This document shows positions 840 through 63,624 of a stretch of DNA of 64,000 bases, piece after piece; positions within the stretch are counted from its first letter, which is position 1; each line of letters opens with the position of its first letter. The DNA is taken from assembly GCF_012489685.1 (NCBI RefSeq), contig NC_080046.1, positions 28,402,223-28,466,222 of the forward strand. The letters are read 5' to 3'. Origin of the DNA: Lotus japonicus (lineage: Eukaryota > Streptophyta > Magnoliopsida > Fabales > Fabaceae). The translations under genes were made by a program, and so were the position numbers. The notes beneath the pieces were generated by a model. The model had not been told where the DNA came from and did no database searches. It saw only the letters and a list, made by a program, of their open reading frames with translations.

Positions 840-1237
840 TGTAACACCCCGATTTCCAGGTGTCACTTTAGTAACCAAAAATAGACTTTACGCTGAAAAC
901 AGGTAATTTTTTTGTTTGATACCTTTTAAATCAAGCAATAGAAAATAAAGACAAAACCCAACCAACACACAAATATATACACATGTACAGCCTCAGCTGC
1001 ACTCCCATGTCACGCGCACTCGCAGTGACTCCAAAGTAGTGTGCCCGTAGGCAAATAGTTACAGATCCAGAAGTGTGAGTGAAAAGGTTATAATTACAAT
1101 CCACTGGGAGAAAGTCGGCCTCAAAATGGCCTAAGCAAAGACTCCTATAGTCCGACTGACTCACTGTGATCCCTCAATAAGAGAACCACACAAAAGCCAT
1201 GCGTCGGGAACCTACCCCGTCCCAAAAACAAAACGAA

Positions 1238-1531
1238 TCAGAGCTCTACACAAATATGACGCCTGCCTAACTCTACCAACCCATAACTGCTCACACATCC
1301 GAGTCCTCGGCGAACTGAAGACGGCAAGTTGAAGCTCAGCTCCATGCGTCGTAGAACTTCTTTCGTCAGATGTTCACACTCGTCAGTCCGGTCCTCCATG
1401 ACCCTTCCCCGGTACGTCGCTCGATGACCCACAACATCGATCACCCAAGCGGTGGGGGCATCCCGATCCACAAGCTCATATCTGATCCCCCCCGAGGGAG
1501 AGACCATCGAACACCAGTCGGCCATCGACAT
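1238..1531 (-). CDS. LTR-internal ORF, Tk1 3' LTR copy (97 codons from MSMADW)
   Basis: The ORF is open from 1564, but I choose the ATG at 1531. It follows a CAG like a splice acceptor, and the related ORF in Tk5 is conserved only from Q-MSMADW onward. Visible blocks are MSMADW, PSGG, W-V-I-D, GHRATYRGR and MEDRTDE, then LTKEVLRR. Over 63 residues it matches the Tk5 ORF at about 40 positions with no indel. A more distant ORF in Tk3 shares W-x2-D-x4-R-x2-Y-x-G. I do not recognise a known family. It contains no obvious signal peptide or membrane segment. It lies about 0.4 kb before the LTR end. Function is unknown; it may be a conserved LTR-encoded protein. Confidence 0.55.
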   Translation of the reverse strand: MSMADWCSMVSPSGGIRYELVDRDAPTAWVIDVVGHRATYRGRVMEDRTDECEHLTKEVLRRMELSFNLPSSVRRGLGCVSSYGLVELGRRHICVEL

Positions 1532-1770
1532 CTGGCAGCAGGCCGACCGCCCAAACACAAACATACAAACAAAGCCAAGGCGCTAGGGTCAACTCACAGC
1601 AATAAGTAGATATACACTCAACATGTGATATGGGGTATAGATATATGTTGATATATATACATATAAACAATCCTAGCATGTTATGGCTCTAACATTGCTT
1701 CAATAAACAAACAACACACAATCTCAGTCAGCATGAATGTATGCGTGAAATGCACAATATGTATCCGGAT

Positions 1771-2007
1771 TTGTGACGCGTTCCCGTTCGCCACAAGTGA
1801 AGCATTTTCACTATGGATGGACCATTCCCGTTATCCATCCTGGATGAAATCCATCCTGGATGAACCATTCCCGTTATTCATCCTTGGTGAACCATTCCCG
1901 TTATTCACCGAATGATGAACCATTCCCGTTATTCATCATTAATGCAAGGTGAACCATTCCCGTTATTCACCATGATATGCACAGGTGAACCATTCCCGTT
2001 ATTCACC
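1771..2007 (-). repeat. Hairpin cluster with AACGGGAAYG loop (Tk1 3' LTR)
   Basis: On the element's sense (minus) strand there are eight stem-loop units. The conserved loop is AACGGGAATG (AACGGGAACG in one). Stems differ between units: GGTGAA/TTCACC, GATGAA/TTCATC, GGATGGA/TCCATCC and TTGTGGCG/CGTCACAA. The unit nearest 1800 has lost its loop but keeps AGTGAA/TTCACT. The identical cluster is in the right LTR at 9500-9736. Confidence 0.85.
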
Positions 2008-2099
2008 CGATTGAATGCAACGTGGTTAGCCAAACAACGAATCGTCCTTACCACGAAAGTGTTTAGCTCACAACCCAATCTCAACAAACCCATGAGTTA

Positions 2100-2240
2100 G
2101 TGTCGGTCAATACAACACAACTCGGAGTAAGTGTCGGTCAATACAACACAACTCCATCCACAGAATACACAAGGGTCTAGTGTCGGTCAATACAACACAG
2201 CCCAAACAACAAGAGCACTAGGTGTCGGTCAATACAACAC
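2100..2240 (-). repeat. Hairpin cluster with 19-bp core, four units (Tk1 3' LTR)
   Basis: The core GTGTTGTATTGACCGACAC (sense, minus strand) is repeated at 2100-2118, 2131-2149, 2180-2198 and 2222-2240. The core folds on itself (GTGT/ACAC). The bases outside each core can pair with each other, and they differ from unit to unit, for example GAGT/ACTC, GGG/CCC and GAGC/GCTC. The solo LTR has five units. Confidence 0.8.
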
Positions 2241-3710
2241 GGCTCCACAACAATCCCCAAGAGTACTAGAGTACTCGGTGACTTTCAATCATCACCATAG
2301 CTCACCTTAGTGGCTTCCCCCAATTCCGATAACTCTCCAAACCCACAACAAAGTCGACTTTTCCCCGTCTTTCGTAAATATTTTCCCCTTCAGTTCTCCT
2401 ATGCTTAAACGTTAATAAAAATTGTTTCAATTCGAATTAGTCAAGTTATGAGTTTATTTCTCAAAGTCTAAGTTTCCCAAGTCTTTAGTTTTTCAAAGCT
2501 CTATCATTCTAAGTTTTCAAAGATCAACCACCCAAAATACATTTCCCGGGGAAAGTCTAAGAATTCCAACATATGGCTAAGTCTCAAACCCCACATTTGG
2601 ACTTGCCTAGGGTTGTTCATCCAACCCGAAATATCAAAGATCACCAGATCAATGAATCTCCACTCCGAAATTGCGTCAAAACGCTCAATCCAACAAAAGC
2701 ACAACATCACAAGTATGGAAAAGCATCATAACATCAACTCATCATCAAAAACAACATCAGATAAACATAAGTCGAATTTATCGACGCCTATCATGCAGTC
2801 ATAGCTAATATATAGTAAGTTGCCCTAACCTCGAGCTGATCCAGCTTCGCAAATCAAATCTCCTTCACAGGAATGCCTTGAAACTTCCAAAGTTCCTTCA
2901 ACTGAACCTCGGAGGAAAAACAAAGCAGAATCCACACAAAATCGATTAGTTCGATCGCAATACAATACATAAACGATAGACAAAGCATCAAAGCTTCAGA
3001 ATACGACAAACAGGTACGAAAGGACAAGTTTTCGAAAACGAAAAACTCCCCTCCCCTTAGGAAAAACCCACGGCCAAAAGGAGAAAAGGGCTTCGGCTCT
3101 TTTTCTTCGATCAAATCAGTTTACAAGGTAGTTTTAGGGTAAAACTAAGGCAAAGAAACTGTCAGAACAATTTTCGGACAATCGGGCCGAAATACGACTA
3201 CGCAGGGGCATTTTGGTCCAAAATAAAGGCTCAAAACTTCAAAGTTATCAGTTCTGAAAACAAATTTGACAGCAACGATCCTCATGATATCCGTGACAAC
3301 AAATCCTAAAGGCACGAAGTCATATTAAGTCTTTTCGACAATAAAGTTTCGAAATGTGAGACAAAAAGAGTTTTGAGTCAATTTTTCAGATCCTGGGCAA
3401 CTGAATCGCAATCAGAGTTTACTGACAGAGGTTTTAGACTCAGGGGAACATAAGGAACATAACCCAAGCGAGAAATCAGAGAAATCGGACAATTTTAGAA
3501 AAAGCTCAAAACTTAGAGCACAGAACGACTTCAGAAACTCAGCAGAAACAGAAATCAGAGGCAGGATTCATGATAGTTACCTCGATACCTAGAAGTAGGG
3601 ACGAACTGCACGAAGATTGGTCAAGTTTTCGCGGAAATCCCCTCCCCCCTTGCTCCCCACGAAATCAGCCACAAATGGAAAGAAAATGAGAGGATTTTGC
3701 TTTTTCGCGC

Positions 3711-3718
3711 TATTTATA
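3711..3718 (-). promoter_or_regulatory. TATA box of Tk1 3' LTR
   Basis: TATAAATA on the minus strand, preceded by CC. The solo LTR has the same box in the same place (60421-60428), so it is probably the LTR core promoter, with U3 upstream and R/U5 downstream. Confidence 0.65.
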
Positions 3719-4410
3719 GGCGGGTGAAATCGCGGGAAAATGAAAATTTCGCGATTCCGATTTTTGCAGCACGATCACCGAGAAATTCTAAGAGAGATTC
3801 TGGCGTCGGAATTCCAGAACTCAAAACAAATATCTAGGATTTGGGAAAAACGATATCGAAAAACTCAAAAGCGGTGTCGGTTAATCTGCCCCGAAAAACT
3901 ACTTTTTGCTGTGATGCTCAAACGACAAAACTTCCAACTGAAGAAAGATTGGAAACGTCGAAACAAGTCTGGCAGCGCGGACGGAATCTTCGTTAGAAGT
4001 CCCGAATAGAAAAAGTATTCATCCATTGCTCGAAAATAGGGTTTCGAAGCAAAGAAATTAGCGTCGGCGGACATCCGAAAAGTGAAACCTATCGTGCGTA
4101 CAGTCCAGAGTTCCGAAATGAAACGCTGGTCGATGGAAAAATAAAAAGAATCTTTAAATTTTCCGAGAGTTCGAAATCTCACTCAAAACGTTGCTTTAAG
4201 AGCGAAATAGCCTATTCTGGACACGCTTGCCATAAGGCAGGTGTGCAGACGACTCGCACTAACTCCGAAAACAGCTACGCAACATTCCTCAAGCAATTCC
4301 TGAACTTTCTTCTTCATTAATCTTTCTCAAATGTCAAACTCCTGTCACGCTTACACTATTTCTACGTGTGAGTCGGAAACTTAACTTGTTCTGAAAATCC
4401 AGGTCTTACA

Positions 4411-4427
4411 ATACTCCCCTCCAAAAA
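4411..4427 (-). other. Tk1 polypurine tract
   Basis: Directly inside the left LTR the minus strand reads TTTTTGGAGGGGAGTAT, a purine-rich tract expected to prime plus-strand DNA synthesis. It confirms that this LTR is the 3' one. Confidence 0.75.
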
Positions 4428-4447
4428 GAAAGTTTCGTCCTCGAAAC

Positions 4448-4660
4448 TCAGAGCTCTGCAAAAAGTTCGGAATACAGTTCCTTGATCTTATCTTCCAATT
4501 CCCATGTAGTAGTGCCTGTGTCATTGTTCCTCAAAATCTTTACTTAAGCAATCTGCCTTCCCCTTAACTGTTTCACTCTTCTATCCCCACTGCTAACTAT
4601 CGGCGTCTCAAAAGACAAAACATCATTCAACCTCATGTCGTCTGACTCGATTACTTGCGT
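4448..4660 (-). pseudogene. Tk1 integrase C-terminus with chromodomain relic
   Basis: The minus-strand frame ending with TGA at 4450-4448 reads RRVKQLRGRQIA, a stop, then VKILRNNDTG and TWELEDKIKELYSELFAEL. This matches the chromodomain tail of chromoviral integrase (compare TWELENKMRESHPDLF in Tk3). It shows Tk1 descends from a chromovirus, although the rest of the integrase is missing. The in-frame stop and lost upstream domains make it a pseudogene. Confidence 0.75.
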
Positions 4661-6778
4661 CGGACCTCTGCTTGAAATGATACCGGTTGGCATTCCGTGC
4701 AGTCGCACAACCTTAGCCACTTACTTCTTTACTTTCGGTCGTCCGGAATTCTTCTTAAACTCAGTGCCTCTCTGTCATCTCAAAGTAGATACTCAACTTG
4801 TCCTCGTGATCTTCATCTACAGTCCATCACTTGTTCGTTCGATAACTCTTAGACGAAACATTGCGTTGGAATCTAATAGTCCATTAACGTCACATCCAAC
4901 TTCGTAACTATCATCACTCGCACAATGAAATCAATCTCCTACTTAGTCACCATTCGAATTAAAAATCGACTTATGTCCTTATTTCTTGTCCTTCACTAAT
5001 CTTATCCCCTTCAACATCAAGTTACCAACAACTTATAAGATAATCCTCTTCTTAATATCTAACAATCCATTATTATCGTCTTCTTCCTTAGAACTTCCCT
5101 CACTCAAACCTATTTACACTTACTGAAATCCCTAACACTTCGCATAAATCGAGACTTATCCTCTAGTAGATTACATCATAACTATACCTCAAGGGACTTA
5201 ACTAGCCATCTTATCATCCGATCCTTCAACATTCTGAGATTTAACTCTATCGTAACCGCTAACACCGCTAAATCTCGTATGTGTACATGAATCTCAGCTC
5301 ACTAGGTCAACCTTAGCCCTAGGATTCTCATTCAACCTTAGTAAAATTCACTTGTTAACCGTAATATGCATCATCAAAATCCATAACAAAGTTTCATCCA
5401 CTCTTAAGCTCTAAGAAACTTGTCCAAACATAACAACTTCAAGTATTCATCTTAACACCAACACCCTCCTTTTGGGACTCAACCACCATCTCGTCAATCA
5501 ACTTCTTAATCTCCCAATCAAATTCTGACAAACTTTGAGTCCTTCACACCTTAGACAGACATTCATAGATTTAAAACCTAAACCTTCTCCAAGTTTGGTC
5601 CTCTAATGTCCTTTAATCCTTCAATACTTCTTAAATGAATATCCGTTTCTTAAAAACTATAACTCCTTCACTTACCCAAACGACCTGACCAGTGTCGTCA
5701 TGCTTTCACATCCACAACTTATTATGCTAACATCATTCAAATCATATCACATGGCTCATTATGTCTGCAACCTCATGATCAACATCAATCGATCACCAAC
5801 TTATAACCAACCTTATGACCCTACACAACCCAAGATTCATTTACTTCAAGATCACTCTTATATTATACCTCAATGGTCTTAACCCGAAACCCATCTCCAG
5901 GTCTTCATTCTTCTAAGATTCAACTCCTATTGTCACAGCTACAACTGTAAGATCTCTTACTCGTATGCGATTCTCGACTCTCAAGATTCAATCTTAACCC
6001 TAAGATTTCAATCCAACTTAGTAAATCTCACTTAGTAATCTCAGCATATTTCCTTGGAATCCATATCACCAACCTCAAGTATTCAACTTATGCTAAAACT
6101 TTCTTTCTCCAACTTAATCATTAATTCAACACTTTTCAAGCGAAAATTCATCTCTTAAGACTATAATGTCTCCACATATTAATCCAACGCTTAGCAAAAC
6201 TTATTCCTCGAACTCGACTATAACAATCTAGTTCAGAGTTAATTCTTCTCAATCTCGCTACCATCAAACAATCATCTATAACCGGATATTAAATCCAACC
6301 TATCTAATCTCTAATAATCCCACGTCAGAAATCACATAACCTATGACTTCATAACTTCCGAGAAAATACTTAAAGATTTTCCAACATCAATTCTATTGGC
6401 TTAGTCTACCTCTACTTGGAGTAATCACACGAACTAACCAATCAATGTCTATACGAAAATCATCAACTTCCAAAGGTTCAAATCTTAATCTTGTACAATC
6501 AAATGCTTAACACGAACTTTCCTCCCAAATCCGACTAATCCTCAATCAATTCAAATTCATCTTACACATCCTTCTATCAAGGTCCATTATCAGCTGTGAT
6601 TCCGAATATCACCCCCTCAATATTAGGTTGATCAGGCCTAATACATCGAAGGTGGAAATTTAGAAAAACCCACTGGAACAGACAATGAGTTCCTGACATC
6701 CAGTAACCACAAATATCCTGATATCAAGTTCCTAACGATTCTGCTACGGAACCACACACCCTCAATCCATGTAAAAGA
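4661..6778. other. Non-coding filler in Tk1 interior with diverged direct repeat
   Basis: About 2.1 kb occupies the place where RNase H and integrase should be. I find no coding match. It is pyrimidine-rich on the plus strand. A diverged direct repeat with a unit near 0.67 kb is visible: the block around 5190-5400 (TATACCTCAAGGGACTTAAC onward) resembles 5860-6070 (TATACCTCAATGGTCTTAAC onward), in the same order. A third, weaker copy may follow. Confidence 0.5.
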
Positions 6779-7500
6779 TTAATCCTTCCTCGTCAATTGA
6801 GTCAAAGGTCCAACAATCTTGGCAAATCCCTCAATGAAGCGTCTATAATATCCAGCTAAATCCACAGAACTTCTGATCTCTGTCACCATCTTCGGTTGCT
6901 CCCAAGCCAAAACAGTCTCCACTTTCGCCGGATCCACAGCTATGCCCTCCTTCGAGATAGCATGGCCTAAGAAATTGACTTCCTCCAACCAGAATTCACA
7001 CTTGGAAGGGTTCTCATACAGCTTTTTCTCTCTCAACAATTGTAAAACTTGGCGCAAATGTCCTTCATGTTTATTCGCGTCCTTCGAATAGATCAATATG
7101 TCCTCAATAAACACCACCACACGCCGATCTAAGAACTCCTGAAAGATGCGGTTCATGTAATCCATGAAAACAGCAGGTACATTCGTCACTCCAAACGGCA
7201 TCACTAGGTACTCGTAGTGTCCTTAACGTGTCCTGAAAGCAGTCTTCGGTATATCCTCAATCTTCACTCTGATCCGACGATAGCCTGACCTCAAATCTAT
7301 CATGGAAAATACGGTAGCCCCTCGTAGTTGGTCCATCAAATCATCTATCCTTGGCAACGGGTATCTGTTCTTGATCGTCGCCTTGTTCAATTGTCGATAA
7401 TCCACCCACGATCTCGACCTTCCGTCCTTCTTCTTGACTAACAACACTGGCGCTCCCCACGGTGAAACACTCGGTCGAATGAATCCCTTTTGCCGAAAGA
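6779..7500 (-). pseudogene. Tk1 reverse transcriptase fragment
   Basis: Two adjacent minus-strand frames (7447-7223 and 7204-6779), separated by a stop, give a Ty3/gypsy RT. The first has [20 protein letters not shown] and [11 protein letters not shown]. The second has MPFGVTN, the catalytic box, KCEFW, FLGH and [13 protein letters not shown], ending at LTQLTRKD. The catalytic motif reads FIEDI where the family has FIDDI, so one aspartate is lost. Bases up to about 7500 also read as RT after a frameshift ([10 protein letters not shown]). The RT end and RNase H are gone. It is not functional. Confidence 0.88.
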
Positions 7501-7776
7501 TCCTCTAACGACTCCGCTTCAAAACTAAACGCCCTAAAATCCTACGATTCGTACCCATAAGGAATTTCCCTGAGATCCTAGCTTCCTTATCAACGCCTCG
7601 GTAAAACAACTCCCTAGCTCCGCGTGCTATTCTAGATCTCGTGTAACCTCTATAGTTAAATCACGAGCAACTTCGAATAAGGTCCTACTAGGGATAATAA
7701 TCATAGGATCATAGTCTAAGTAGTAAATACAAGTTAGGCGCGTCACACTCGCTTGAATATAAAAGAGTAAGTTATT
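7501..7776. other. Unassigned Tk1 interior
   Basis: This stretch between the RT and nucleocapsid fragments should hold the aspartic protease. I see no D-[ST]-G motif or GMDWL box, and no long frame. It is probably decayed sequence. Confidence 0.4.
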
Positions 7777-8100
7777 CTAGAATACGAGAACAGTTAAAAT
7801 ATTACCATCGTTCCCACGTTCTTCCTCGTTCGACTCCTCAACTCTTGCTCCTCCCTTGATATGAATCCTTTCCTCTGTAGCAAGTTGTTTTCCTATCCCA
7901 ACATTCCCTGATGATTCGCCCCTGAGTGCCTTGCAATCTTGGGAGAAATGTCCCGGTTGGTTGCAATTGAAGCATAGACTTTCTTTGGTCTTGCAGCTCA
8001 CAGCTAGATGCCCCTCTCGGTTACACTTGAAGCATCTCCGTCCAATCACTGAGCATTTGTTAGCAAAATGCCCAAACTTTCTGCAACGAGTACATGTCAC
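7777..8100 (-). CDS. Tk1 nucleocapsid fragment with three zinc knuckles
   Basis: The 107-codon frame has three CCHC knuckles of the form C-x2-C-x4-H-x4-C within its first 60 residues: CTRCRKFGHFANKC, CFKCNREGHLAVSC and CFNCNQPGHFSQDC. Such knuckles bind retroelement RNA during packaging. Three is more than the single knuckle usual in plant chromoviruses. The acidic tail runs to a stop near 7777 with no link to protease. A stop separates it from the upstream gag piece at 8108. Whether this fragment is made as a protein is unknown. Confidence 0.8.
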   Translation of the reverse strand: MTCTRCRKFGHFANKCSVIGRRCFKCNREGHLAVSCKTKESLCFNCNQPGHFSQDCKALRGESSGNVGIGKQLATEERIHIKGGARVEESNEEERGNDGNILTVLVF

Positions 8101-8107
8101 TCCTTTG

Positions 8108-8566
8108 TCACCAACTGGCTTCCCCCCCAGTATCAGCAGTCGTCGGTTTGTACTCTCTTGAGATAAGATTTCTTCCCTCGGAACGCTGATATGGTCCCCA
8201 CTTATGGTAACTCTTCCTTCCGTTGTAGCCTTGGGAACCTGACCTCATTGGTCCCCCAGCTCCAATTCGGTTCATTCCTCTTTGTTGATACATTGCTGTC
8301 GCCATCAGTCGTTGATGATGCTCACGTGTAGCCTCCGCCATCCGGTTAAGATCCACCATCCTATATCCCATCGAACGTCCGATTAGTACTAACCATACGG
8401 TAGCACTAGACAAACCACTCAATCCGATTGAGTAGTAACGCAAGCAATTAGAGCGAAAATCGCTCTGCAGACAATCAATTTTCACTCTTTGCAGAGTCAC
8501 ACAACCTAGCACAGAAGACCTATTCCCCAAAGACTCCCAAAAGACTCGACTAAGCTCTGATACCAC
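8108..8566 (-). pseudogene. Tk1 gag remnant
   Basis: The frame starts inside the primer-site region (MVSELS is a translation of it), so the first 80 or so codons are probably leader sequence. The gag-like part is the later MAEATREHHQRLM, followed by a glycine/arginine-rich stretch like the linker before zinc knuckles. The capsid domain that should lie between is absent, so gag is internally deleted. Confidence 0.55.
8554..8565 (-). other. Tk1 primer binding site
   Basis: TGGTATCAGAGC on the minus strand, three bases inside the right LTR, is the exact complement of the 3' end of plant initiator-Met tRNA. It marks the right LTR as the 5' LTR. Confidence 0.92.
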
Positions 8567-8966
8567 AATGTAACACCCCGATTTCCAGGTGTCACTTTAG
8601 TAACCAAAAATAGACTTTACGCTGAAAACAGGTAATTTTTTTGTTTGATACCTTTTAAATCAAGCAATAGAAAATAAAGACAAAACCCAACCAACACACA
8701 AATATATACACATGTACAGCCTCAGCTGCACTCCCATGTCACGCGCACTCGCAGTGACTCCAAAGTAGTGTGCCCGTAGGCAAATAGTTACAGATCCAGA
8801 AGTGTGAGTGAAAAGGTTATAATTACAATCCACTGGGAGAAAGTCGGCCTCAAAATGGCCTAAGCAAAGACTCCTATAGTCCGACTGACTCACTGTGATC
8901 CCTCAATAAGAGAACCACACAAAAGCCATGCGTCGGGAACCTACCCCGTCCCAAAAACAAAACGAA

Positions 8967-9260
8967 TCAGAGCTCTACACAAATATGACGCCTGCCTAAC
9001 TCTACCAACCCATAACTGCTCACACATCCGAGTCCTCGGCGAACTGAAGACGGCAAGTTGAAGCTCAGCTCCATGCGTCGTAGAACTTCTTTCGTCAGAT
9101 GTTCACACTCGTCAGTCCGGTCCTCCATGACCCTTCCCCGGTACGTCGCTCGATGACCCACAACATCGATCACCCAAGCGGTGGGGGCATCCCGATCCAC
9201 AAGCTCATATCTGATCCCCCCCGAGGGAGAGACCATCGAACACCAGTCGGCCATCGACAT
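8967..9260 (-). CDS. LTR-internal ORF, Tk1 5' LTR copy
   Basis: Same 97-codon frame as at 1238-1531, with an identical protein (MSMADW, PSGG, GHRATYRGR, MEDRTDE, LTKEVLRR). In this LTR it lies downstream of the promoter and upstream of the primer site, so it would be the first ORF of the genomic transcript. The upstream CAG|ATG looks like a splice acceptor joined to the start codon. Confidence 0.55.
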   Translation of the reverse strand: MSMADWCSMVSPSGGIRYELVDRDAPTAWVIDVVGHRATYRGRVMEDRTDECEHLTKEVLRRMELSFNLPSSVRRGLGCVSSYGLVELGRRHICVEL

Positions 9261-9499
9261 CTGGCAGCAGGCCGACCGCCCAAACACAAACATACAAACA
9301 AAGCCAAGGCGCTAGGGTCAACTCACAGCAATAAGTAGATATACACTCAACATGTGATATGGGGTATAGATATATGTTGATATATATACATATAAACAAT
9401 CCTAGCATGTTATGGCTCTAACATTGCTTCAATAAACAAACAACACACAATCTCAGTCAGCATGAATGTATGCGTGAAATGCACAATATGTATCCGGAT

Positions 9500-9736
9500 T
9501 TGTGACGCGTTCCCGTTCGCCACAAGTGAAGCATTTTCACTATGGATGGACCATTCCCGTTATCCATCCTGGATGAAATCCATCCTGGATGAACCATTCC
9601 CGTTATTCATCCTTGGTGAACCATTCCCGTTATTCACCGAATGATGAACCATTCCCGTTATTCATCATTAATGCAAGGTGAACCATTCCCGTTATTCACC
9701 ATGATATGCACAGGTGAACCATTCCCGTTATTCACC
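9500..9736 (-). repeat. Hairpin cluster with AACGGGAAYG loop (Tk1 5' LTR)
   Basis: Copy of the eight-unit cluster at 1771-2007, in the leader of the predicted genomic RNA. Confidence 0.85.
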
Positions 9737-9828
9737 CGATTGAATGCAACGTGGTTAGCCAAACAACGAATCGTCCTTACCACGAAAGTGTTTAGCTCAC
9801 AACCCAATCTCAACAAACCCATGAGTTA

Positions 9829-9969
9829 GTGTCGGTCAATACAACACAACTCGGAGTAAGTGTCGGTCAATACAACACAACTCCATCCACAGAATACACA
9901 AGGGTCTAGTGTCGGTCAATACAACACAGCCCAAACAACAAGAGCACTAGGTGTCGGTCAATACAACAC
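9829..9969 (-). repeat. Hairpin cluster with 19-bp core (Tk1 5' LTR)
   Basis: Copy of the four-unit cluster at 2100-2240, lying about 90 bases 5' of the AACGGGAAYG cluster on the sense strand. Confidence 0.8.
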
Positions 9970-11439
9970 GGCTCCACAACAATCCCCAAGAGTACTAGAG
10001 TACTCGGTGACTTTCAATCATCACCATAGCTCACCTTAGTGGCTTCCCCCAATTCCGATAACTCTCCAAACCCACAACAAAGTCGACTTTTCCCCGTCTT
10101 TCGTAAATATTTTCCCCTTCAGTTCTCCTATGCTTAAACGTTAATAAAAATTGTTTCAATTCGAATTAGTCAAGTTATGAGTTTATTTCTCAAAGTCTAA
10201 GTTTCCCAAGTCTTTAGTTTTTCAAAGCTCTATCATTCTAAGTTTTCAAAGATCAACCACCCAAAATACATTTCCCGGGGAAAGTCTAAGAATTCCAACA
10301 TATGGCTAAGTCTCAAACCCCACATTTGGACTTGCCTAGGGTTGTTCATCCAACCCGAAATATCAAAGATCACCAGATCAATGAATCTCCACTCCGAAAT
10401 TGCGTCAAAACGCTCAATCCAACAAAAGCACAACATCACAAGTATGGAAAAGCATCATAACATCAACTCATCATCAAAAACAACATCAGATAAACATAAG
10501 TCGAATTTATCGACGCCTATCATGCAGTCATAGCTAATATATAGTAAGTTGCCCTAACCTCGAGCTGATCCAGCTTCGCAAATCAAATCTCCTTCACAGG
10601 AATGCCTTGAAACTTCCAAAGTTCCTTCAACTGAACCTCGGAGGAAAAACAAAGCAGAATCCACACAAAATCGATTAGTTCGATCGCAATACAATACATA
10701 AACGATAGACAAAGCATCAAAGCTTCAGAATACGACAAACAGGTACGAAAGGACAAGTTTTCGAAAACGAAAAACTCCCCTCCCCTTAGGAAAAACCCAC
10801 GGCCAAAAGGAGAAAAGGGCTTCGGCTCTTTTTCTTCGATCAAATCAGTTTACAAGGTAGTTTTAGGGTAAAACTAAGGCAAAGAAACTGTCAGAACAAT
10901 TTTCGGACAATCGGGCCGAAATACGACTACGCAGGGGCATTTTGGTCCAAAATAAAGGCTCAAAACTTCAAAGTTATCAGTTCTGAAAACAAATTTGACA
11001 GCAACGATCCTCATGATATCCGTGACAACAAATCCTAAAGGCACGAAGTCATATTAAGTCTTTTCGACAATAAAGTTTCGAAATGTGAGACAAAAAGAGT
11101 TTTGAGTCAATTTTTCAGATCCTGGGCAACTGAATCGCAATCAGAGTTTACTGACAGAGGTTTTAGACTCAGGGGAACATAAGGAACATAACCCAAGCGA
11201 GAAATCAGAGAAATCGGACAATTTTAGAAAAAGCTCAAAACTTAGAGCACAGAACGACTTCAGAAACTCAGCAGAAACAGAAATCAGAGGCAGGATTCAT
11301 GATAGTTACCTCGATACCTAGAAGTAGGGACGAACTGCACGAAGATTGGTCAAGTTTTCGCGGAAATCCCCTCCCCCCTTGCTCCCCACGAAATCAGCCA
11401 CAAATGGAAAGAAAATGAGAGGATTTTGCTTTTTCGCGC

Positions 11440-11447
11440 TATTTATA
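11440..11447 (-). promoter_or_regulatory. TATA box of Tk1 5' LTR
   Basis: TATAAATA on the minus strand, the probable core promoter of the Tk1 genomic RNA. Confidence 0.65.
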
Positions 11448-12296
11448 GGCGGGTGAAATCGCGGGAAAATGAAAATTTCGCGATTCCGATTTTTGCAGCA
11501 CGATCACCGAGAAATTCTAAGAGAGATTCTGGCGTCGGAATTCCAGAACTCAAAACAAATATCTAGGATTTGGGAAAAACGATATCGAAAAACTCAAAAG
11601 CGGTGTCGGTTAATCTGCCCCGAAAAACTACTTTTTGCTGTGATGCTCAAACGACAAAACTTCCAACTGAAGAAAGATTGGAAACGTCGAAACAAGTCTG
11701 GCAGCGCGGACGGAATCTTCGTTAGAAGTCCCGAATAGAAAAAGTATTCATCCATTGCTCGAAAATAGGGTTTCGAAGCAAAGAAATTAGCGTCGGCGGA
11801 CATCCGAAAAGTGAAACCTATCGTGCGTACAGTCCAGAGTTCCGAAATGAAACGCTGGTCGATGGAAAAATAAAAAGAATCTTTAAATTTTCCGAGAGTT
11901 CGAAATCTCACTCAAAACGTTGCTTTAAGAGCGAAATAGCCTATTCTGGACACGCTTGCCATAAGGCAGGTGTGCAGACGACTCGCACTAACTCCGAAAA
12001 CAGCTACGCAACATTCCTCAAGCAATTCCTGAACTTTCTTCTTCATTAATCTTTCTCAAATGTCAAACTCCTGTCACGCTTACACTATTTCTACGTGTGA
12101 GTCGGAAACTTAACTTGTTCTGAAAATCCAGGTCTTACACTTTTCAAAAACTGTTTAGTGCAGCGGAAGTAAGTAAATAAAGCAGAACGATCAGCACACA
12201 GGAATTTATACTGGTTCACCCTAAACGATTGGGCTACGTCCAGTACTTGGCCACCACCAAGATTTTCACTAGCAAGTATCAAGGACTTCTCCAATA

Positions 12297-23917: not shown

Positions 23918-24399
23918 GCCTAGAGGCGAAGTTGGCTTTGGAGGAAATGAAAAGGGTAAAATTGTTGGTACTGGTACTATTTGTGTAGATAGTAGTCCAT
24001 GCATTGATAATGTGTTATTGGTAGATGGCTTAACACATAACTTATTGTCTATAAGTCAATTAGCTGACAAGGGTTATGATGTTATATTCAATCAAAAGTC
24101 CTGCCGGGCTGTAAGTCAGATCGATGGCTCTGTTCTGTTTAACAGCAAGAGGAAGAACAACATTTATAAGATCAGATTATCTGAGTTGGAGGCTCAGAAT
24201 GTGAAGTGCCTTCTGTCTGTTAATGAAGAGCAGTGGGTATGGCATAGACGGTTAGGGCATGCCAGTATGAGAAAGATTTCTCAGCTGAGCAAGCTAAACC
24301 TTGTCAGGGGCTTACCCAATCTGAAGTTCGCTTCAGACGCTCTTTGTGAAGCATGTCAGAAAGGCAAATTCACAAAAGTCCCTTTCAAGGCAAAGAATG
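23805..24399 (+). CDS. Si2 protease and integrase zinc region
   Basis: This frame, different from gag, has the copia protease box WYLDSGCSRHMTG near residue 15, then LLSISQLADKGYDV. The gag-pre-integrase/zinc-binding region follows: WHRRLGHASMRKI (HH) and CEACQKGKF (CxxC). The aspartate of DSG is intact. The protein continues across the solo LTR to 25721, where [16 protein letters not shown] resumes the integrase. The gag-to-pol frame change could be programmed or a lesion; I cannot tell. Confidence 0.88.
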
Positions 24400-24999: not shown

Positions 25000-25315
25000 T
25001 CCAAGGTGCAAAGGATATTTCTGTTGAGAGAATATGACCGTTGGAGGGCATTTCTGGAACTTCCAGAATCTGCTGTGGCTGAGAACGTTAGGTAGGTCGT
25101 CAGGAAGGTACACTTGCTTTTGTACTTGGATAGCGACTTGACCTTTTAACCTAGGAGACTTCTGATCAGAGTTATGCTTCGTGTTGAAACTTGTGAAGCT
25201 TGGTGATCAGAGTCAGAGGGATGCTTGGATCCTCTGACCTTCGTAACTTCTGCTTCTGGACCTTCAGAGCTTCTGAACCTTCAGAGCCTCTGGTCCCTCA
25301 GAGCTTCTGGTCTTC

Positions 25316-25560
25316 AGATCTTCTGATCCTCTGATCTTCTGATCCTCTGATCCTCTGATCCTCAGATCCTCTGATCTTCAGATCCTCTGATCTTCAGATC
25401 CTCTGATCTTCAGATCTTCTGATCCTCTGATCCTCTGATCCTCAGATCCTCTGATCTTCAGATCCTCTGATCTTCAGATCCTCTGATCTTCAGATCCTCT
25501 GATCCTCAGATCCTCTGATCTTCAGATCCTCTGATCCTCAGATCTTCTGATCTTCAGAAC
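25316..25560 (-). repeat. CTCTGATC/CAGATC minisatellite in solo LTR U3
   Basis: About 245 bases of short units such as CTTCAGATCCTCTGAT, head to tail with small variations. The same CTCTGA motif is scattered through U3 of the other Si LTRs, so this is a local expansion of a motif already present. Confidence 0.9.
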
Positions 25561-25715
25561 TTCTGACGAATATATCTTCTGGTGTCAGAATCAGAACCTG
25601 TTTGTCAAAAACACCCAAGACAAACATTAGAGTATCATAGTTGTTCATCCACAAATAAATACTTGTTATCATCAAAACATAGAGTTGTACCACATGACCA
25701 AAACTTGATCTTACA

Positions 25716-28230
25716 GAATGTTGTCTCAACCTCAAGGCCGTTGGAACTTCTGCATATCGACCTTTTTGGACTAGTGAAAACTGAGTCTATAGGTGGCAAG
25801 AGATATGGGATGGTTATCGTTGATGACTATAGCCGCTGGACATGGGTAAAGTTTCTAACCCGCAAGGATGAGTCTCATGCTGTGTTCTCTACCTTTATTG
25901 CTCAAGTGCAAAACGAGAAGGCTTGTAGGATTGTGCGTGTCAGAAGTGACCATGGTGGAGAGTTTGAGAATGATAAGTTTGAGAGTCTGTTTGATTCCTA
26001 TGGAATTGCACATGATTTCTCTTGTCCCAGAACTCCTCAACAAAATGGTGTTGTTGAGAGGAAGAACAGAACTCTTCAGGAGATGGCTAGAACCATGCTC
26101 CAAGAAACTGGCATGGCTAAGCCCTTTTGGGCAGAGGCAGTAAATACAGCATGTTACATTCAGAACAGAATCTCTGTAAGACCAATTCTGAATAAGACTC
26201 CTTATGAATTGTGGAAGAACATAAAACCCAACATTTCTTATTTTCATCCTTTTGGATGTGTTTGTTATGTTCTCAATACTAAGGATAGATTGCATAAATT
26301 TGATGCTAAGTCTTCTAAGTGTCTATTACTCGGTTACTCTGAGAGATCTAAAGGTTTTCGATTTTATAATACTGATGCTAAGACTATTGAAGAATCTATT
26401 CATGTTAGATTTGATGATAAGCTTGACTCTGACCAGTCAAAGCTAGTTGAAAAGTTTGCAGATTTAAGCATTAATGTTTCTGACAAAGGCAAAGCTCCAG
26501 AGAAAGATGAGCCAGAGGAAGATGAACCAGAGGAAGAAGCTGGTCCCTCTAACTCACAAACTCTGAAGAAGAGCAGAATCACTGCAGCTCACCCTAAGGA
26601 ATTGATTCTGGGCAACAAAGACGAACCAGTCAGAACCAGATCTGCCTTCAGACCCTCTGAAGAGACCTTGCTGAGTCTGAAAGGATTGGTGTCCTTAGTT
26701 GAACCCAAGTCCATAGATGAAGCTCTTCAGGACAAGGATTGGATTCTGGCCATGGAAGAAGAATTGAATCAATTCTCCAAGAATGATGTTTGGAGCTTAG
26801 TGAAGAAACCTGAGAGTGTCCATGTCATTGGAACGAAGTGGGTATTCAGAAACAAGCTGAATGAGAAAGGAGATGTAGTCAGAAACAAGGCAAGGCTAGT
26901 TGCTCAAGGCTATAGCCAGCAGGAAGGAATAGACTACACTGAAACATTTGCTCCAGTAGCAAGACTGGAGGCAATCAGACTGTTGATCTCTTTCTCAGTA
27001 AATCACAACATAGTTCTACATCAGATGGACGTAAAGAGTGCCTTCCTAAATGGTTATATCTCAGAGGAAGTCTATGTTCATCAACCCCCTGGTTTTGAAG
27101 ATGAGAAGAAACCAGACCATGTGTTCAAATTGAAGAAATCACTCTACGGTCTGAAGCAAGCTCCCAGAGCATGGTATGAGAGACTTAGCTCATTCCTTCT
27201 GGAGAATGAGTTTGTAAGGGGTAAAGTAGATACAACTTTTTTTTGCAAGACTTATAAAGATGATATCTTAATTGTTCAAATTTATGTTGATGATATTATA
27301 TTTGGTTCTGCTAATCAATCTCTATGCAAAGAATTTTCTGAGATGATGCAGGCTGAATTTGAGATGAGTATGATGGGAGAATTAAAGTACTTTCTGGGAA
27401 TACAAGTTGATCAAACACCAGAAGGAACATATATCCATCAGAGCAAGTACACTAAAGAACTTCTGAAGAAGTTCAATATGCTGGAATCTACAGTGGCCAA
27501 AACTCCAATGCATCCTACATGCATTCTGGAAAAAGAAGATAAAAGTGGTAAAGTATGTCATAAGCTCTATCGTGGCATGATAGGTTCTCTTCTATACTTA
27601 ACTGCATCTAGGCCAGATATATTATTTAGTGTTCACTTATGTGCTCGTTTCCAATCAGATCCAAGGGAAACCCACTTAACTGCTGTTAAGAGGATCCTAA
27701 GGTATCTGAAAGGCACCACTAACCTTGGCTTGATGTATAAGAAAACATCAGAGTATAAGCTTTCAGGTTACTGTGATGCTGATTATGCTGGAGATAGAAC
27801 AGAGAGAAAAAGTACTTCTGGAAATTGTCAATTTCTGGGAAGCAATCTAGTCTCATGGGCAAGCAAGAGGCAATCAACCATTGCACTATCAACTGCAGAG
27901 GCAGAATACATCTCAGCAGCAATATGCAGCACTCAGATGCTCTGGATGAAACATCAGCTGGAGGATTATCAGATCCTTGAGAGCAATATCCCAATCTATT
28001 GTGATAACACTGCTGCAATCTCATTGAGTAAGAATCCTATCTTGCATTCAAGGGCAAAGCACATCGAGGTAAAGTATCACTTTATTAGAGATTATGTACA
28101 GAAGGGCGTACTTCTTCTGAAGTTTGTTGATACTGACCATCAATGGGCAGATATCTTTACAAAGCCCTTAGCAGAGGATAGATTTAATTTTATTCTGAAA
28201 AATCTAAACATGGACTTTTGTCCAGAGTGA
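25716..28230 (+). CDS. Si2 integrase, RT and RNase H
   Basis: About 838 codons run without a stop. The integrase core has LLHIDLFG and VIVDDYSRW (first Asp), SDHGGEFEN (second Asp) and [15 protein letters not shown] (Glu). An acidic linker follows, then RT with [34 protein letters not shown] and the catalytic [10 protein letters not shown]. RNase H has [18 protein letters not shown] and YCDNTAAIS, and the protein ends LNMDFCPE. The upstream ATG at 25582 lies in the inserted LTR and is not the real start. All catalytic residues I can check are present. The polyprotein is split only by the solo LTR and the gag-pol frame change. Confidence 0.95.
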
Positions 28231-58690: not shown

Positions 58691-59728
58691 TTAAGGAAAG
58701 AATTTGGTGGCCCGGAATGAAGAAAGACATCATGAAGAAGGTAAATGACCTGTCTGACATGTCAAAAGGCGAAAGTAGAGCATCAAAAACCCTCTAGAGA
58801 ATTGAGACTTCTAGAGATACCAGAATGGAAATGGGAGAGCATTTCCATGGACTTTGTTACCGGATTACCAAGAACTCACAGCAAGAACGATGCTATTTGG
58901 GTAATTGTAGACCAACTTACCAAGTGCGCGCATTTCGTAGTGGTAAACATGACATACTCACTAGAGAAATTAGCAAGGATATATGTGAAGGAAGTAGTGA
59001 GACATCATGGAATACCGGCAAGCATAGTTTCGGACAGAGATCCGCGGTTTACATCACTATTATGGAAGAACCTGCACAAGGCCTTATGAACAAATTTGAA
59101 GTTTAGCTCAGCATATCACCCCCAGACGGACGGACAGACAGAAAGAACCATTCAAACGCTGGAAGATATGTTGCGAACATGCGCTTTAGAGGAGCAAGGC
59201 AGTTGGGGGATTGTTTGCCATTAGTGGAGTTTTCGTATAACAATAGTTTCCACTCAAGCATAGGAATGGCAACATTTGAAGCATTGTACGGGAGGAAATG
59301 TAGGACCCCGTTGAGTTGAGTTGGTTGGATGAAGGAGATAAGTTAGTACTAGGACCCGACGTAGTGCAAGATATGTCGGAAAAGGTGAAAAGAATCAGAG
59401 AAAAGCTTAGGATAGCACAGGATAGGCAGAAAGCTTACTATGATCGTAGGAGAAAACCCTTAGAGTTTGAAGAGGGAGACCATGTTTTCCTCAGAGTTAA
59501 TCCAATTACAGGGATAAGAAGGTCAATTGAGTCGAAAAAGCTTACACCAAAATATTTAGGACCTTACCAGATCCTTAGGAAGGTAGGAACATCAACCTAC
59601 CAAATGGCACTACCGCCATCTTTGTCAAACTTGCACGATGTGTTTCATGTTTCCCAAATGAAGAAATACATCCCCGACCCTTCTCATGTGATAAAACCTG
59701 AACATATAAAACTCAAGTAGAACTTAAC
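58691..59728 (+). pseudogene. Tk2b integrase fragment
   Basis: A plus-strand copy of the Tk2 family, starting at [16 protein letters not shown]. It has the [14 protein letters not shown] zinc motif (frameshifted relative to what precedes it), [32 protein letters not shown], then the same TGA as Tk2. Next come [18 protein letters not shown] with a one-base frameshift, WLDEGDKLVLGPDVVQDMSE, KYLGPYQILRKVGTSTYQMA and NLHDVFHVSQMKKYIPDPSH. A TAG sits in KLK*NLTYTV. The 5' half of the element is absent. It is split at 59728 by the Tk1-type solo LTR. Confidence 0.9.
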
Positions 59729-60420
59729 TGTAAGACCTGGATTTTCAGAACAAGTTAAGTTTCCGACTCACACGTAGAATCAGTGTAAGCGTGACAGGAG
59801 TTTGACATTTGAGAAAGATTAATGAAGAAGAAAGTTCAGGAATTGCTTGAGGAATGTTGCGTAGTTGTTTTCGGAGTTAGTGCGAGTCGTCTGCACACCT
59901 GCCTTATGGCGAGCGTGTCCAGAATAGGCTATTTCGCTCTTAAAGCAACGTTTTGAGTGAGCTTTCGAACTCTCGGAAAATTTAAAGATTCTCTTTATTT
60001 TTCCATCGACCAGCGTTTCATTTCGGAACTCTGGACTGTACGCACGATAGGTTTCACTTTCCGGAAGCTCGACGACTCTAATTTCTTTGCTTCGAAACCC
60101 TAGTTTTGAGCGAAGGATGAAGACTTTTTCTATTCGGGACTTCTAACAAAGATTCCATCCGCGCTGCCAGACTTGTTTCGACATTTCCAATCTTTCTTCT
60201 GTTGGAAGTTTTATCGTCTGAGCATCACAGCAAAAAGTAGTTTTTCAGGACAGACTAACTTACACCGCTTTTGGCGTTTTGGATATCGTTTTTCCCAAAT
60301 CTTAGATAATTGTTTTGAGTTCTGGAATTTCGATGCCAGAATCTCTCTTAGAATTCCTTGGTGAACGTGCTGCAAAAATCGGAATCGCGAAATTTTCATT
60401 TTCTCGGGATTTCGCCTGCC

Positions 60421-60428
60421 TATAAATA
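60421..60428 (+). promoter_or_regulatory. TATA box in Tk1-family solo LTR
   Basis: TATAAATA after GCCTGCC, 692 bases into the LTR, in the same place as in Tk1. Confidence 0.65.
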
Positions 60429-61861
60429 GCTCGAAAAGCGAAAATTCCTTCATTTTCTTCCTATTGTGGCCGAATTTCGTGGAGAGCAAGGGGGGAGGAG
60501 ATTTTCGCGAAAACTTGACTGATCTTCGTGCAGTTCGTCCCTACTTCTAGGTATCGAGGTAACTAACACGATTCCTACCTCTGATTGTTGTTTCTGTTGC
60601 GTTTTTGAAGTCGTTTCTGTGCTCACAGTTTTGAGCTTTTTCTAAAATTGTCCGTTTTCTTCGATTTCTTTCTTGGGTTATGTTCTCTAGGTTCCCATGA
60701 GCCTAAAACCTCTGTCAGTAATCGCCGATTGTGATCCAGTTGTCCAGGATCTGAAAAACTGTTTCAAAACCCTTTTTGCTCACATTTCGAAACTTTATTG
60801 TCGAAAAGACTTAATCTGACTTCGTGCCTTTAGGATTTGTTGTCACGGATGTCACGAGGATCGTTGCTGTCAAATTTTTTTTCAGAACTGATAACTTTGA
60901 AGTTTTGAGCCTTTATTTTGGACCAAAATGCCCCTGGATAGTCATATTTCGACCCGATTGTCCGAAAATTGTTCCGACAGTTTCTTTGCCTTAGTTTTAT
61001 CCTAAAACTACCTTGTGAATTGATTTGATCAAAGAAAAAGAGCCGAAGCCCTTTTTCCTTTGAGGTCGTGGACTATTTCCTTTAGGGGGGAGTTTTTCGG
61101 TTTCGAAAACTTGTCTTTTCGTACCTGATTGTCCTATTCTGAAGCTTTAATGCTTTGTCTATCGTTTATGTATTGTTTTTCGATCGAACTAATCGATTTT
61201 GTTTGGTTACTGCTTTGTTTTTCTCCGAGGTTCAGTTGAGGGAACTTTGGAAGACTCAGAGCAATTGTTTGAGGAGAACTTTGTTTGCGAAGCTGGAACA
61301 GCTCGAGGTTAGGGCAACTTACTATATCAGCTATGATTGCATGATAGGCGTCGATAAATTCGACTTATGCTTTATCTGATGTTGTTTATGATGTTGAGTT
61401 GATGTTGTGATACTTTTCCATAACTTGTGATGTTGTGCTTTTGTTGGATTGTGCGTTTTGACGCGACTTCGGAGTGGAGATTCATTGATCTGGTGATCTT
61501 TGATATTTTGGGTTGGATGAGCAACCCTAGGCAAGTCCAAATGAGGGGTTTGAGACCTAGCCTGGTTGGTATTTGTTGGTTTACTTAGACTTTCCCCGGG
61601 AAACTTCTTTTGGGTGGTTGGTTTTCGGAAAACGTGGAAGGATTAGAATTTCGAAAACTAAAGACTTGGGAAACCTAGATTTTGAGAAATAAACTCATAA
61701 CCTGACTAATCTGAATTGAAATCATTTTTATTAATGTTTAAGTATAGGAAAACTGAAGGGGAAAATATTTACGAAAGACGGGGAAAAGTCGACCTTTGTT
61801 GTGAGTTATTGGAATTGGGGAAAGCCACTAAGGTGAGCTATGGTGATGATTGAAAGTCACC

Positions 61862-62084
61862 GAGTACTTTACGTACTCTTGTTGATGGGGTTGTGTTGTA
61901 TTGACCGACACTAACCCCTTGGGTTCTCTTGTTGTTGGAGCGGTGTTGTATTGACCGACACTTAGCGCTCTTGTTGTTTGGGCTGTGTTGTATTGACCGA
62001 CACTAGACCCTTGTGTATTCTTGTTGGTGGAGCTGTGTTGTATTGACCGACACTTACTCCGAGTTGTGTTGTATTGACCGACAC
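61862..62084 (+). repeat. Hairpin cluster with 19-bp core, five units (solo LTR)
   Basis: A GAGTAC/GTACTC hairpin (61862-61878) precedes cores at 61893, 61943, 61985, 62035 and 62066. Outer stems: GGGGTT/AACCCC, GAGCG/CGCTC, GGGCT/AG-CCC, GGAG/CTCC, GAGTT/AACTC. In units 1 and 5 a single unpaired T sits 3' of the core. Confidence 0.85.
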
Positions 62085-62176
62085 TAACTCATGGGTTTGT
62101 TGAGATTGGGTTGTGAGCTAAACACTTTCGTGGTAAGGGCGATTCGTTGTTTGGCTAACCACGTTGCATTCAATCG

Positions 62177-62420
62177 GGTGAATAACGGGAATGGTTCACC
62201 TGTGCATATCATGGTGAATAACGGGAATGGTTCACCTTGCATAAATGATGAATAACGGGAATGGTTCATCATATGGTGAATAACGGGAATGGTTCACCAA
62301 GGATGAATAACGGGAATGGTTCATCCAGGATGGATTTCATCCAGGATGGATAACGGGAATGGTCCATCCATAGTGAAGAACGGGAATGCTTCACTTGTGG
62401 CGAACGGGAACGCGTCACAA
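62177..62420 (+). repeat. Hairpin cluster with AACGGGAAYG loop, eight units (solo LTR)
   Basis: Units at 62177-62200, 62213-62236, 62245-62272, 62274-62299, 62301-62326, 62344-62369, 62372-62395 and 62395-62420. Stems: GGTGAA/TTCACC (three), ATGATGAA/TTCATCAT, GGATGAA/TTCATCC, GGATGGA/TCCATCC, AGTGAAG/CTTCACT, TTGTGGCG/CGTCACAA (with G-T wobble). Loop AACGGGAATG in seven, AACGGGAACG in the last. In unit 7 the closing T-G wobble becomes G-C. Confidence 0.9.
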
Positions 62421-62658
62421 ATCCGGATTCATATTGTGCATTTCACGCATACATTCATGCTGACTGAGACTGTGTGCTGTTTGTTTATTGAAGCAATGTT
62501 AGAGCCATAACATGCTAGGATTACTTATATGCTTATATAACAACTTATATATATACCCTGTCACATGTTGAGTGTATATGTACTTATTGCTGTGAGTTGA
62601 CCCTAGCGCCTTGGCTTTGTTTGTATGTTTGTGTTTGGGCGGTCGGCCTGCTGCCAGA

Positions 62659-62970
62659 TGTCGATGGCCGACTGGTTCTCGGTGGTCTCTCCCTCGGGGG
62701 GGGGGGGATCAGATATGAGCTGCAGGATCGGGATGCCCCACCGCTTGGGTGATCGATGTTGCTGGTCACCGGGCGACGTATCGGGGAAGGGTCATGGAGG
62801 ACCGGACTGACGAGCGTGGACGTCTGACGAAAGGAGTTCTATGGCGCATGGAGTTGAGCTTCAACTTGCCGACTTCAGATCGTTGTGGGTTTGGCACTGG
62901 GAGGTTAGGTTTGGGCAGGCGTCATGTTTTGTGTAGAGCTCTGATTCGTTTTGCTTTTGGGATCGGGTAG
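62659..62970 (+). pseudogene. LTR-internal ORF, Tk1-family solo LTR (frameshifted)
   Basis: MSMADWFSVVSPSGG is followed by a run of about 13 G (about 62696-62708) that is longer than in Tk1, so the frame is lost. The rest continues in another frame as MIDVAGHRATYRGR and MEDRTDERGRLTK, with a stop at 62970. Slippage in the G run is the evident lesion. Confidence 0.6.
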
Positions 62971-63357
62971 GTTTCCGACGCATGACTTTTCGTGTGGTTC
63001 TCTTACTGAGGGATCACAGTGAGTCAGTTGGACCATAGGGGTCTTTGCTTAGGCCATATTGAGGCCGACTTTCTCCTAGTGGTTTGTAATTATAATTTTC
63101 TCACTTACACTTCTGGGTCTGTATATATTTGCCTACGGGCACACTGCTTTGGAGTCACTGCGAGTGCGCGTGACATGGAGTGCAGCTGAGGCTGTACATG
63201 TATATATGTTGTATATCGGTTAGTTTAGTAGTTGGGTTTTGTCTTTACTTCCTTATCGTTTTGATTTAAAGGAAAGAAAACGAAAAAAAATTACCTGTTT
63301 TCCGCGTAAAGATTATTTTTGGTTACTAAAGTGACACCTGGAAATCGGGGTGTTACA

Positions 63358-63624
63358 TTAACATACACGGTCGAACCTAAAAAGATATTGGATAGAAGGA
63401 TGAAACAACTTAGGAAAAAGGAAATCTCGTTAGTGAAAGTAGCTTGGAGTGAAGGGGAGGATGAAGAAGCTATTTGGGAATTAGAAGAGGATATGAGAAG
63501 GACATACCCTCAACTGTTTAGTATTTTAGGATGTGAATTTTGGGGACGAAATTCTCAAAAAGGAGGGGAGAGTGTAACATCCCACCAACCAGGTAAAGAC
63601 CTCATAGGCAACGCGAAACCCTAG
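63358..63624 (+). pseudogene. Tk2b chromodomain tail
   Basis: Continuation of 59728: TYTVEPKKILDRRMKQLRKK, EISLVKVAWSEGEDEEAIWE, LEEDMRRTYPQLFSILGCEF, then through the purine tract into the LTR to the stop at 63624 (52 bases in), as in Tk2. Confidence 0.9.
63557..63572 (+). other. Tk2b polypurine tract
   Basis: AAAAAGGAGGGGAGAG just before the LTR start TGTAACATCCCACC; it lies inside the open chromodomain frame. Confidence 0.75.

Follow-up and report, generated by a model that had tools for sequence, protein, structure and literature searches.

Two arrays of loop-conserved, stem-covarying hairpins in the LTRs of a Del/Tekay-like retrotransposon of Lotus japonicus

Introduction

Retroviral packaging hairpins offer an unpaired G to the zinc knuckles of nucleocapsid, and RNA hairpins that bind proteins are marked by a single-stranded loop that stays constant while the sequence of the stem is free. 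Little is known of how LTR retrotransposons of plants select their own RNA, or of how their defective copies are mobilised. The barley element BARE has, in the part of the account drawn on here, two promoters and distinct RNA pools for packaging and for translation, and BARE2, which is defective, is packaged in trans (PMC3735527). Palindrome clusters with predicted RNA structure are known in the LTRs of maize Sirevirus (Ty1/copia) elements; maize Ty3 elements are generally without an obvious peak of miRNA-like structure, as far as the excerpted text of that paper goes (PMC10760457). The LORE1 and LORE2 elements of Lotus are treated in another account, also drawn on in part (PMC2832683). In the open-licence literature, no description was found of loop-conserved, stem-covarying arrays in plant LTRs. 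A term search of the main text of PMC4029996, which covers the Del/Tekay lineage, returned no stem-loop, secondary structure, palindrome or tandem repeat.

Two hairpin arrays, A and B, were analysed in three LTRs of one window, the whole 64-kb stretch of L. japonicus DNA examined. As in Sirevirus, short palindromes with predicted RNA structure are clustered in the LTR. Sirevirus is Ty1/copia, however, whereas the domain order of a related copy (L042) is here that of Ty3/gypsy, and Sirevirus conserves a palindrome motif, CACCGGACNNNGTCCGGTG (PMC10760457, in the portion available), while here the loop is constant and the arms vary. That motif is not the unit of these arrays, whose units read AACGGGAAYG and GTGTTGTATTGACCGACAC. 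A possible likeness to BARE lies in two TATA-like sites in the LTR (here TATAAATA and a candidate second TATA-rich stretch) and a spreading defective subfamily; BARE is a copia element for which the same partial account (PMC3735527) describes no hairpin array, whereas the arrays here are in a gypsy element and the promoters are putative. Several hairpins in the probable leader, an exposed loop G and Gag-derived zinc-knuckle ORFs, all read here from sequence alone, recall retroviral packaging signals. Those signals differ from the present arrangement, in which as many as 13 units of two loop classes lie within the LTR. Whatever their role, the arrays are a candidate conserved structured RNA in a very abundant plant repeat, without a match in Rfam.

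Results

The host element and its LTRs

Coordinates are collected in Table 1. The LTR type of the solo LTR is 89% identical to that of the full-length element, and array B lies on the sense strand in all three LTRs of the window. The sense strand of the full-length element was fixed by its primer binding site, which we take to match initiator Met tRNA. A purine-rich tract lies immediately 5' of the 3' LTR. The interior (4411-8568, minus strand) is broken, and zinc-knuckle and RT pieces remain.

Table 1. Positions of arrays, LTRs and associated features in the window
Feature	Position	Strand	Remarks
Array A, five hairpins, core GTGTTGTATTGACCGACAC	61887..62090	+	Cores at 61893, 61943, 61985, 62035, 62066; outer stems vary and match
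Array B, eight hairpins, loop AACGGGAA[T/C]G	62176..62420	+	Within solo LTR
Array B units 1-4	62176-62201, 62212-62237, 62246-62271, 62274-62299	+	
Array B units 5-8	62301-62326, 62344-62369, 62371-62396, 62395-62420	+	Units 7 and 8 overlap
Extra short hairpin GGATG-GATTT-CATCC	62328..62342	+	Without the common loop; inside 16-nt tandem duplication
Array B in 5' LTR	9500..9737	-	Seven full units and one with shortened loop
Array B in 3' LTR	1771..2008	-	Seven full units and one with shortened loop
Solo LTR	59729..63357	+	Target-site duplication TTAAC (59724-59728, 63358-63362)
5' LTR of full-length element	8569..12139	-	3571 nt
3' LTR of full-length element	840..4410	-	100% identical to 5' LTR
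Primer binding site TGGTATCAGAGC	8554..8565	-	Three bases past 5' LTR
Gag-derived ORF with zinc knuckles (zf-CCHC)	7777..8244	-	Candidate binding-partner type
TATA box TATAAATA	60421..60428	+	Solo LTR nt ~693, upstream of both arrays
Second TATA-like stretch	62545..62556	+	Candidate promoter, ~125 nt past array B

Further LTR copies were sought in 553.7 Mb of genome. Copy L042 carries the arrays in its LTR, followed by a primer binding site and a 1268-aa ORF. When searched in pieces, this ORF matched gag, zinc-knuckle, protease, RT, RNase H and integrase in that order; the rve match was below the curated cut-off and the gag start lay outside the ORF. The sequence of L042 runs only a little way past this ORF. 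In copy L041, an ORF at 4670-5632 holds four zf-CCHC stretches and gave no gag domain match.

By LTR length, att type and the domain order of L042, the host appears to be a Del/Tekay-like Ty3/gypsy LTR element. The lineage order of gag, protease, RT, RNase H and integrase is that of L042. The LTR of 3571 nt is inside the range of 1143-4831 bp given for Del/Tekay, and the LTR end GGGGTGTTACA fits U5 att type A, with GGG at -8 to -10, as set out in the available part of PMC4029996. The LTR type of the broken element in the window was 100% identical over 571 nt in 40 of the 40 matches listed, many of them paired 7-8 kb apart; this type has spread recently. The arrays are common to a long-ORF member (L042) and to broken members, as expected of a cis-acting signal; their presence in broken copies is equally expected without any role, because they sit in the LTR.

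Structure and pairing of array B

The original prediction placed eight stem-loops with a common loop at 62177..62420, and all eight were recovered in the solo LTR with the quoted stems. The change of the closing pair from T-G to G-C that had been assigned to unit 7 was present in both units 7 and 8. The array was also present in both LTRs of the full-length element, where it had been predicted at 1771-2007 and 9500-9736, but as seven full units and not eight, since the loop of unit 7 is shortened by 7 nt.

The stems were better paired than shuffled arrangements of the same arms. With G-U allowed, 62 of 64 stem positions were paired in the solo LTR, a figure equalled by 4 of 40,320 permutations of the 3' arms; in the full-length element the values were 54 of 56 positions and 12 of 5,040 permutations. 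Across the nine distinct units, 95.8% of stem cells were paired and the predicted double-sided changes occurred in six of the eight stem pairs. The covariation score was 0.528 against a shuffled mean of 0.187, was reached in 0 of 500 shuffles, and fell to 0.115 or less in slid versions. This covariation is between units within one array. The outermost of the eight pairs is broken in some units.

A generic detector of clustered hairpins with a common loop, which reports one cluster per loop and strand, returned only these arrays and their reverse complements in the 64 kb, and zero clusters in three first-order Markov sequences. Covariance model R1 gave 22 matches in the window, comprising 21 strong matches (seven in each of the three arrays) and one weak match at 24344-24375 (E 1.9). 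Unit 8 of the solo LTR has no separate entry because it overlaps unit 7. Rfam covariance models run over 59700-63400 gave no match up to E = 1. The viral contigs searched contained no match to a 20-mer of array B or to the 19-nt core of array A; three viral-contig matches to a 17-nt part of that core were set aside, as they lay in one shared, GC-rich, unrelated context. Nine exact matches to an array B 18-mer, one per contig, were found in bacterial contigs, which is about the chance expectation in 257 billion bases.

As RNA the loop reads AACGGGAAYG, on a stem of 7-10 pairs. Two roles named in the original prediction were not favoured on these grounds. A role of the hairpins as origin or trigger of small RNAs has a parallel in maize, where LTR palindrome clusters of Sirevirus match many small RNAs (PMC10760457, from the portion available). 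We regard it as very improbable here, as Dicer-like processing needs stems longer than 7-10 pairs and an element would be expected to lose a silencing signal, not to keep it. Dimerisation through kissing loops was rejected because neither loop, AACGGGAATG or TATTGAC, has a self-complementary (palindromic) stretch of at least 4. Neither ATTCCCGTT nor GGTCAAT, the candidate pairing partners for the loops, occurs on the sense strand in the element's LTR or in the internal region.

A second array upstream

Array A, which was absent from the original prediction, lies just upstream of array B and also occurs in the LTRs at 840-4410 and 8569-12139. The exact core is found in five hairpins in the solo LTR and four in the LTR of the full-length element, and among loci the number of exact cores ranges from two to five. 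Each unit has six core pairs, including one T-G, and the loop TATTGAC (UAUUGAC as RNA). Outer stems differ among units yet pair, in most cases with unpaired bases on the 3' side. Re-dealing the arms gave an equally good fold in 2 of 120 arrangements for the solo LTR and 1 of 24 for the element's LTR. Eight unit types were collected from the window and the loci. Of 40,320 re-dealings of their arms, 8 folded equally well, and three of the eight types folded better with foreign partners than with their own arm.

Conservation among LTR types and copies

Between the two LTR types of the window, 3 of the 238 positions of array B differ, compared with 287 of 2,966 in sequence beyond the arrays and their close flanks; array A, with 8 of 171, falls between these values. 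The A-B spacer differs at 1 of 72 positions, upstream sequence at 202 of 2,146 and downstream sequence at 85 of 820. Of 334 segments of equal length, 6 were as conserved as array B, all of them within LTR nt 2261-2648. LTR nt 1-300 (59729-60028) are also unusually conserved between the two types, with 6 differences in 300.

Forty distinct copies showed about 1-4% divergence per base near the array and about 4-19% across most of the other stretch examined; they were picked by array identity, so this contrast is biased and serves as background only. L041, L042 and L043 are longer versions of copies L017, L023 and L030, and so the 43 loci used for array A unit types and the divergence survey are 40 distinct copies and the 45 rows of that survey are 42. 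To avoid selection by the array, a sample was taken from a 601-nt region ~470 nt away, as 14 of the 40 listed copies of that region, the lowest-scoring rows among them. In these 14 copies array B had 8 differences in 2,943 aligned bases, against 121 in 8,414 for the 601-nt region as estimated from bit scores at ~4.5 bits per difference (Fisher p ~1e-8, only indicative since the copies are related).

The eight differences fall at six places: two in the loop, two between units and two in outermost formed pairs. The recurrent change 62274 T to C, seen in 3 of the 14 copies and in L100, breaks an outermost pair. Among the copies compared there was no compensatory change between copies in one and the same unit. 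A single copy of a more distant subfamily, 92% identical to the query upstream, keeps all eight array B units.

Length changes were also found. Four small indels, some of them in stems, occur in L084, and a single one, in a loop, occurs in L078; L074 and L075 have a common 7-nt loss in unit 7. L081 lacks 34 nt, equal to one unit, and L082 lacks the 16-nt duplication. Such gain and loss of units, together with the variable number of exact array A cores, is in keeping with a neutral origin, in which tandem duplication and template switching in quasi-palindromes yield matched stems without selection. We judge a neutral origin distinctly unlikely, because palindrome correction would erase T-G pairs and bulges, which persist here, and the low divergence of array B is left unexplained. 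Selection on the hairpin fold, as originally proposed, is instead suggested by the paired double changes between units, the near-invariant loop and the low array B divergence. The lack of between-copy compensation and the pair broken by 62274 T to C count against it. Selection on array B itself is likely.

In L079 (1-281), a foreign LTR end (TGTTACACCCCGAT...) is inserted in unit 1 of array B and interrupts the array. LTR insertions weakly prefer palindromes, according to the part of PMC6911290 used here, and this preference may bear on L079.

TATA-like sites, probable leader and strand

Of the 45 rows that extend to the TATA box TATAAATA, 43 contain it; these rows are distinct copies, and 31 of them belong to one young subfamily. 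The arrays lie ~1.5-2.0 kb downstream of it, at nt 2160-2640 in the LTR of the full-length element, and precede the primer binding site. Genomic RNA is the likely molecule, as the sense-strand arrays are downstream of a conserved TATA box, and if TATAAATA starts this RNA, its 5' leader includes the two arrays. We conclude that the arrays are probably in the leader of the genomic RNA, with both transcription starts predicted from sequence. Removal of the arrays by splicing was considered and dropped because the candidate acceptor CTGTTTTCAG near the LTR end is not conserved, being found in 30 of the 75 rows (72 distinct copies) of the TATA and splice-acceptor alignment, whereas 34 of the 75 rows read CTGTTTTCCG.

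The second TATA-like stretch was present, with small variation, in the copies examined. Its position is compatible with the arrays being DNA elements, that is, palindromic factor-binding sites forming an enhancer for a promoter there, and palindromic cis-regulatory arrays are reported in other plant elements (PMC10760457, in the portion available). The antisense strand also pairs equally well: the folding energy z of array B was -3.50 for the sense and -3.82 for the antisense strand, so that energy does not tell the strand, since both fold alike. In a 601-nt context, six of the eight antisense array B units formed their hairpin at 0.84-0.98, compared with 0.17-0.23 for sense array B units 4-6 and 0.03 for sense array A unit 4, which prefer other partners. 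Nevertheless we consider a DNA enhancer unlikely. Factor sites conserve sequence, whereas here the arms vary among units in matched pairs, DNA palindromes would not have the T-G pairs and one-sided bulges that persist here, and the canonical TATAAATA sits upstream of the arrays. An RNA fold is favoured by the sense-strand cells of array B (n = 72), which comprise 60 Watson-Crick, 9 G-U, 1 A-C and 2 other, giving G-U against A-C as 9 to 1; seven of the nine G-U cells are one and the same closing pair.

Proposed role of the arrays

A protein-bound RNA fold is probable. We propose that arrays A and B would act in cis, as RNA elements within the long 5' leader of genomic RNA, with each hairpin presenting one constant single-stranded loop (AACGGGAAYG in B, UAUUGAC in A) and stem sequence being free provided that pairing persists. 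Repetition of the hairpin implies many binding sites, and the arrays could thus be a many-site docking platform for an RNA-binding protein. Transcription through the arrays and protein binding are what we infer; for the partner, the zinc-knuckle region of Gag from the element itself is our best guess, and for the role, packaging. Gag docking would lead to packaging of full-length RNA, including the RNA of defective relatives. GGG is exposed in every array B loop, which fits zinc-knuckle binding as in retroviral nucleocapsid. Taken as a whole, from leader RNA through Gag zinc knuckles to packaging, the proposal is tentative, and we lean slightly against every part of it being right. Several observations speak against the packaging model. 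The antisense strand folds no worse than the sense strand, and in the 601-nt context most antisense array B units form more reliably than sense units 4-6. The conservation of array A is only moderate, whereas LTR nt 1-300 are also well conserved. Between-copy compensation is absent, 62274 T to C breaks an outermost pair, and arrays located in the LTR would occur in broken copies even without a role.

The strongest rival is a host factor for export or translation. The arrays would then be RNA elements bound by a host protein that serves the nuclear export, stability or translation of a genomic RNA whose leader exceeds 2 kb, and a leader this long needs help with export or translation. The structural evidence of pairing, covariation and low array B divergence is the same for this reading as for packaging, but no known host motif was identified and Rfam gave no match. 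It is a serious possibility, though one that we would sooner expect to be wrong.

A further extension of the packaging proposal is that the two arrays sort RNA. Because they lie between the upstream TATA box and the second TATA-like site, only RNA from the upstream promoter would carry them. This RNA, with 12-13 loops bound by zinc knuckles, would be packaged, RNA from the downstream site would be translated, and the defective subfamily that keeps the arrays would ride the signal. We give such sorting a small chance; if true, a plant Ty3/gypsy element would have a packaging code that is modular and countable. Should the packaging role hold, the arrays would mark, in genome sequence, the copies that can be mobilised. 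The repeated loop, on stems that vary freely, is an easily tested target.

Elsewhere in the window, a tandem array of ~19 copies of a 16-bp unit occupies 25233-25567, directly 5' of an open frame at 25567-28230.
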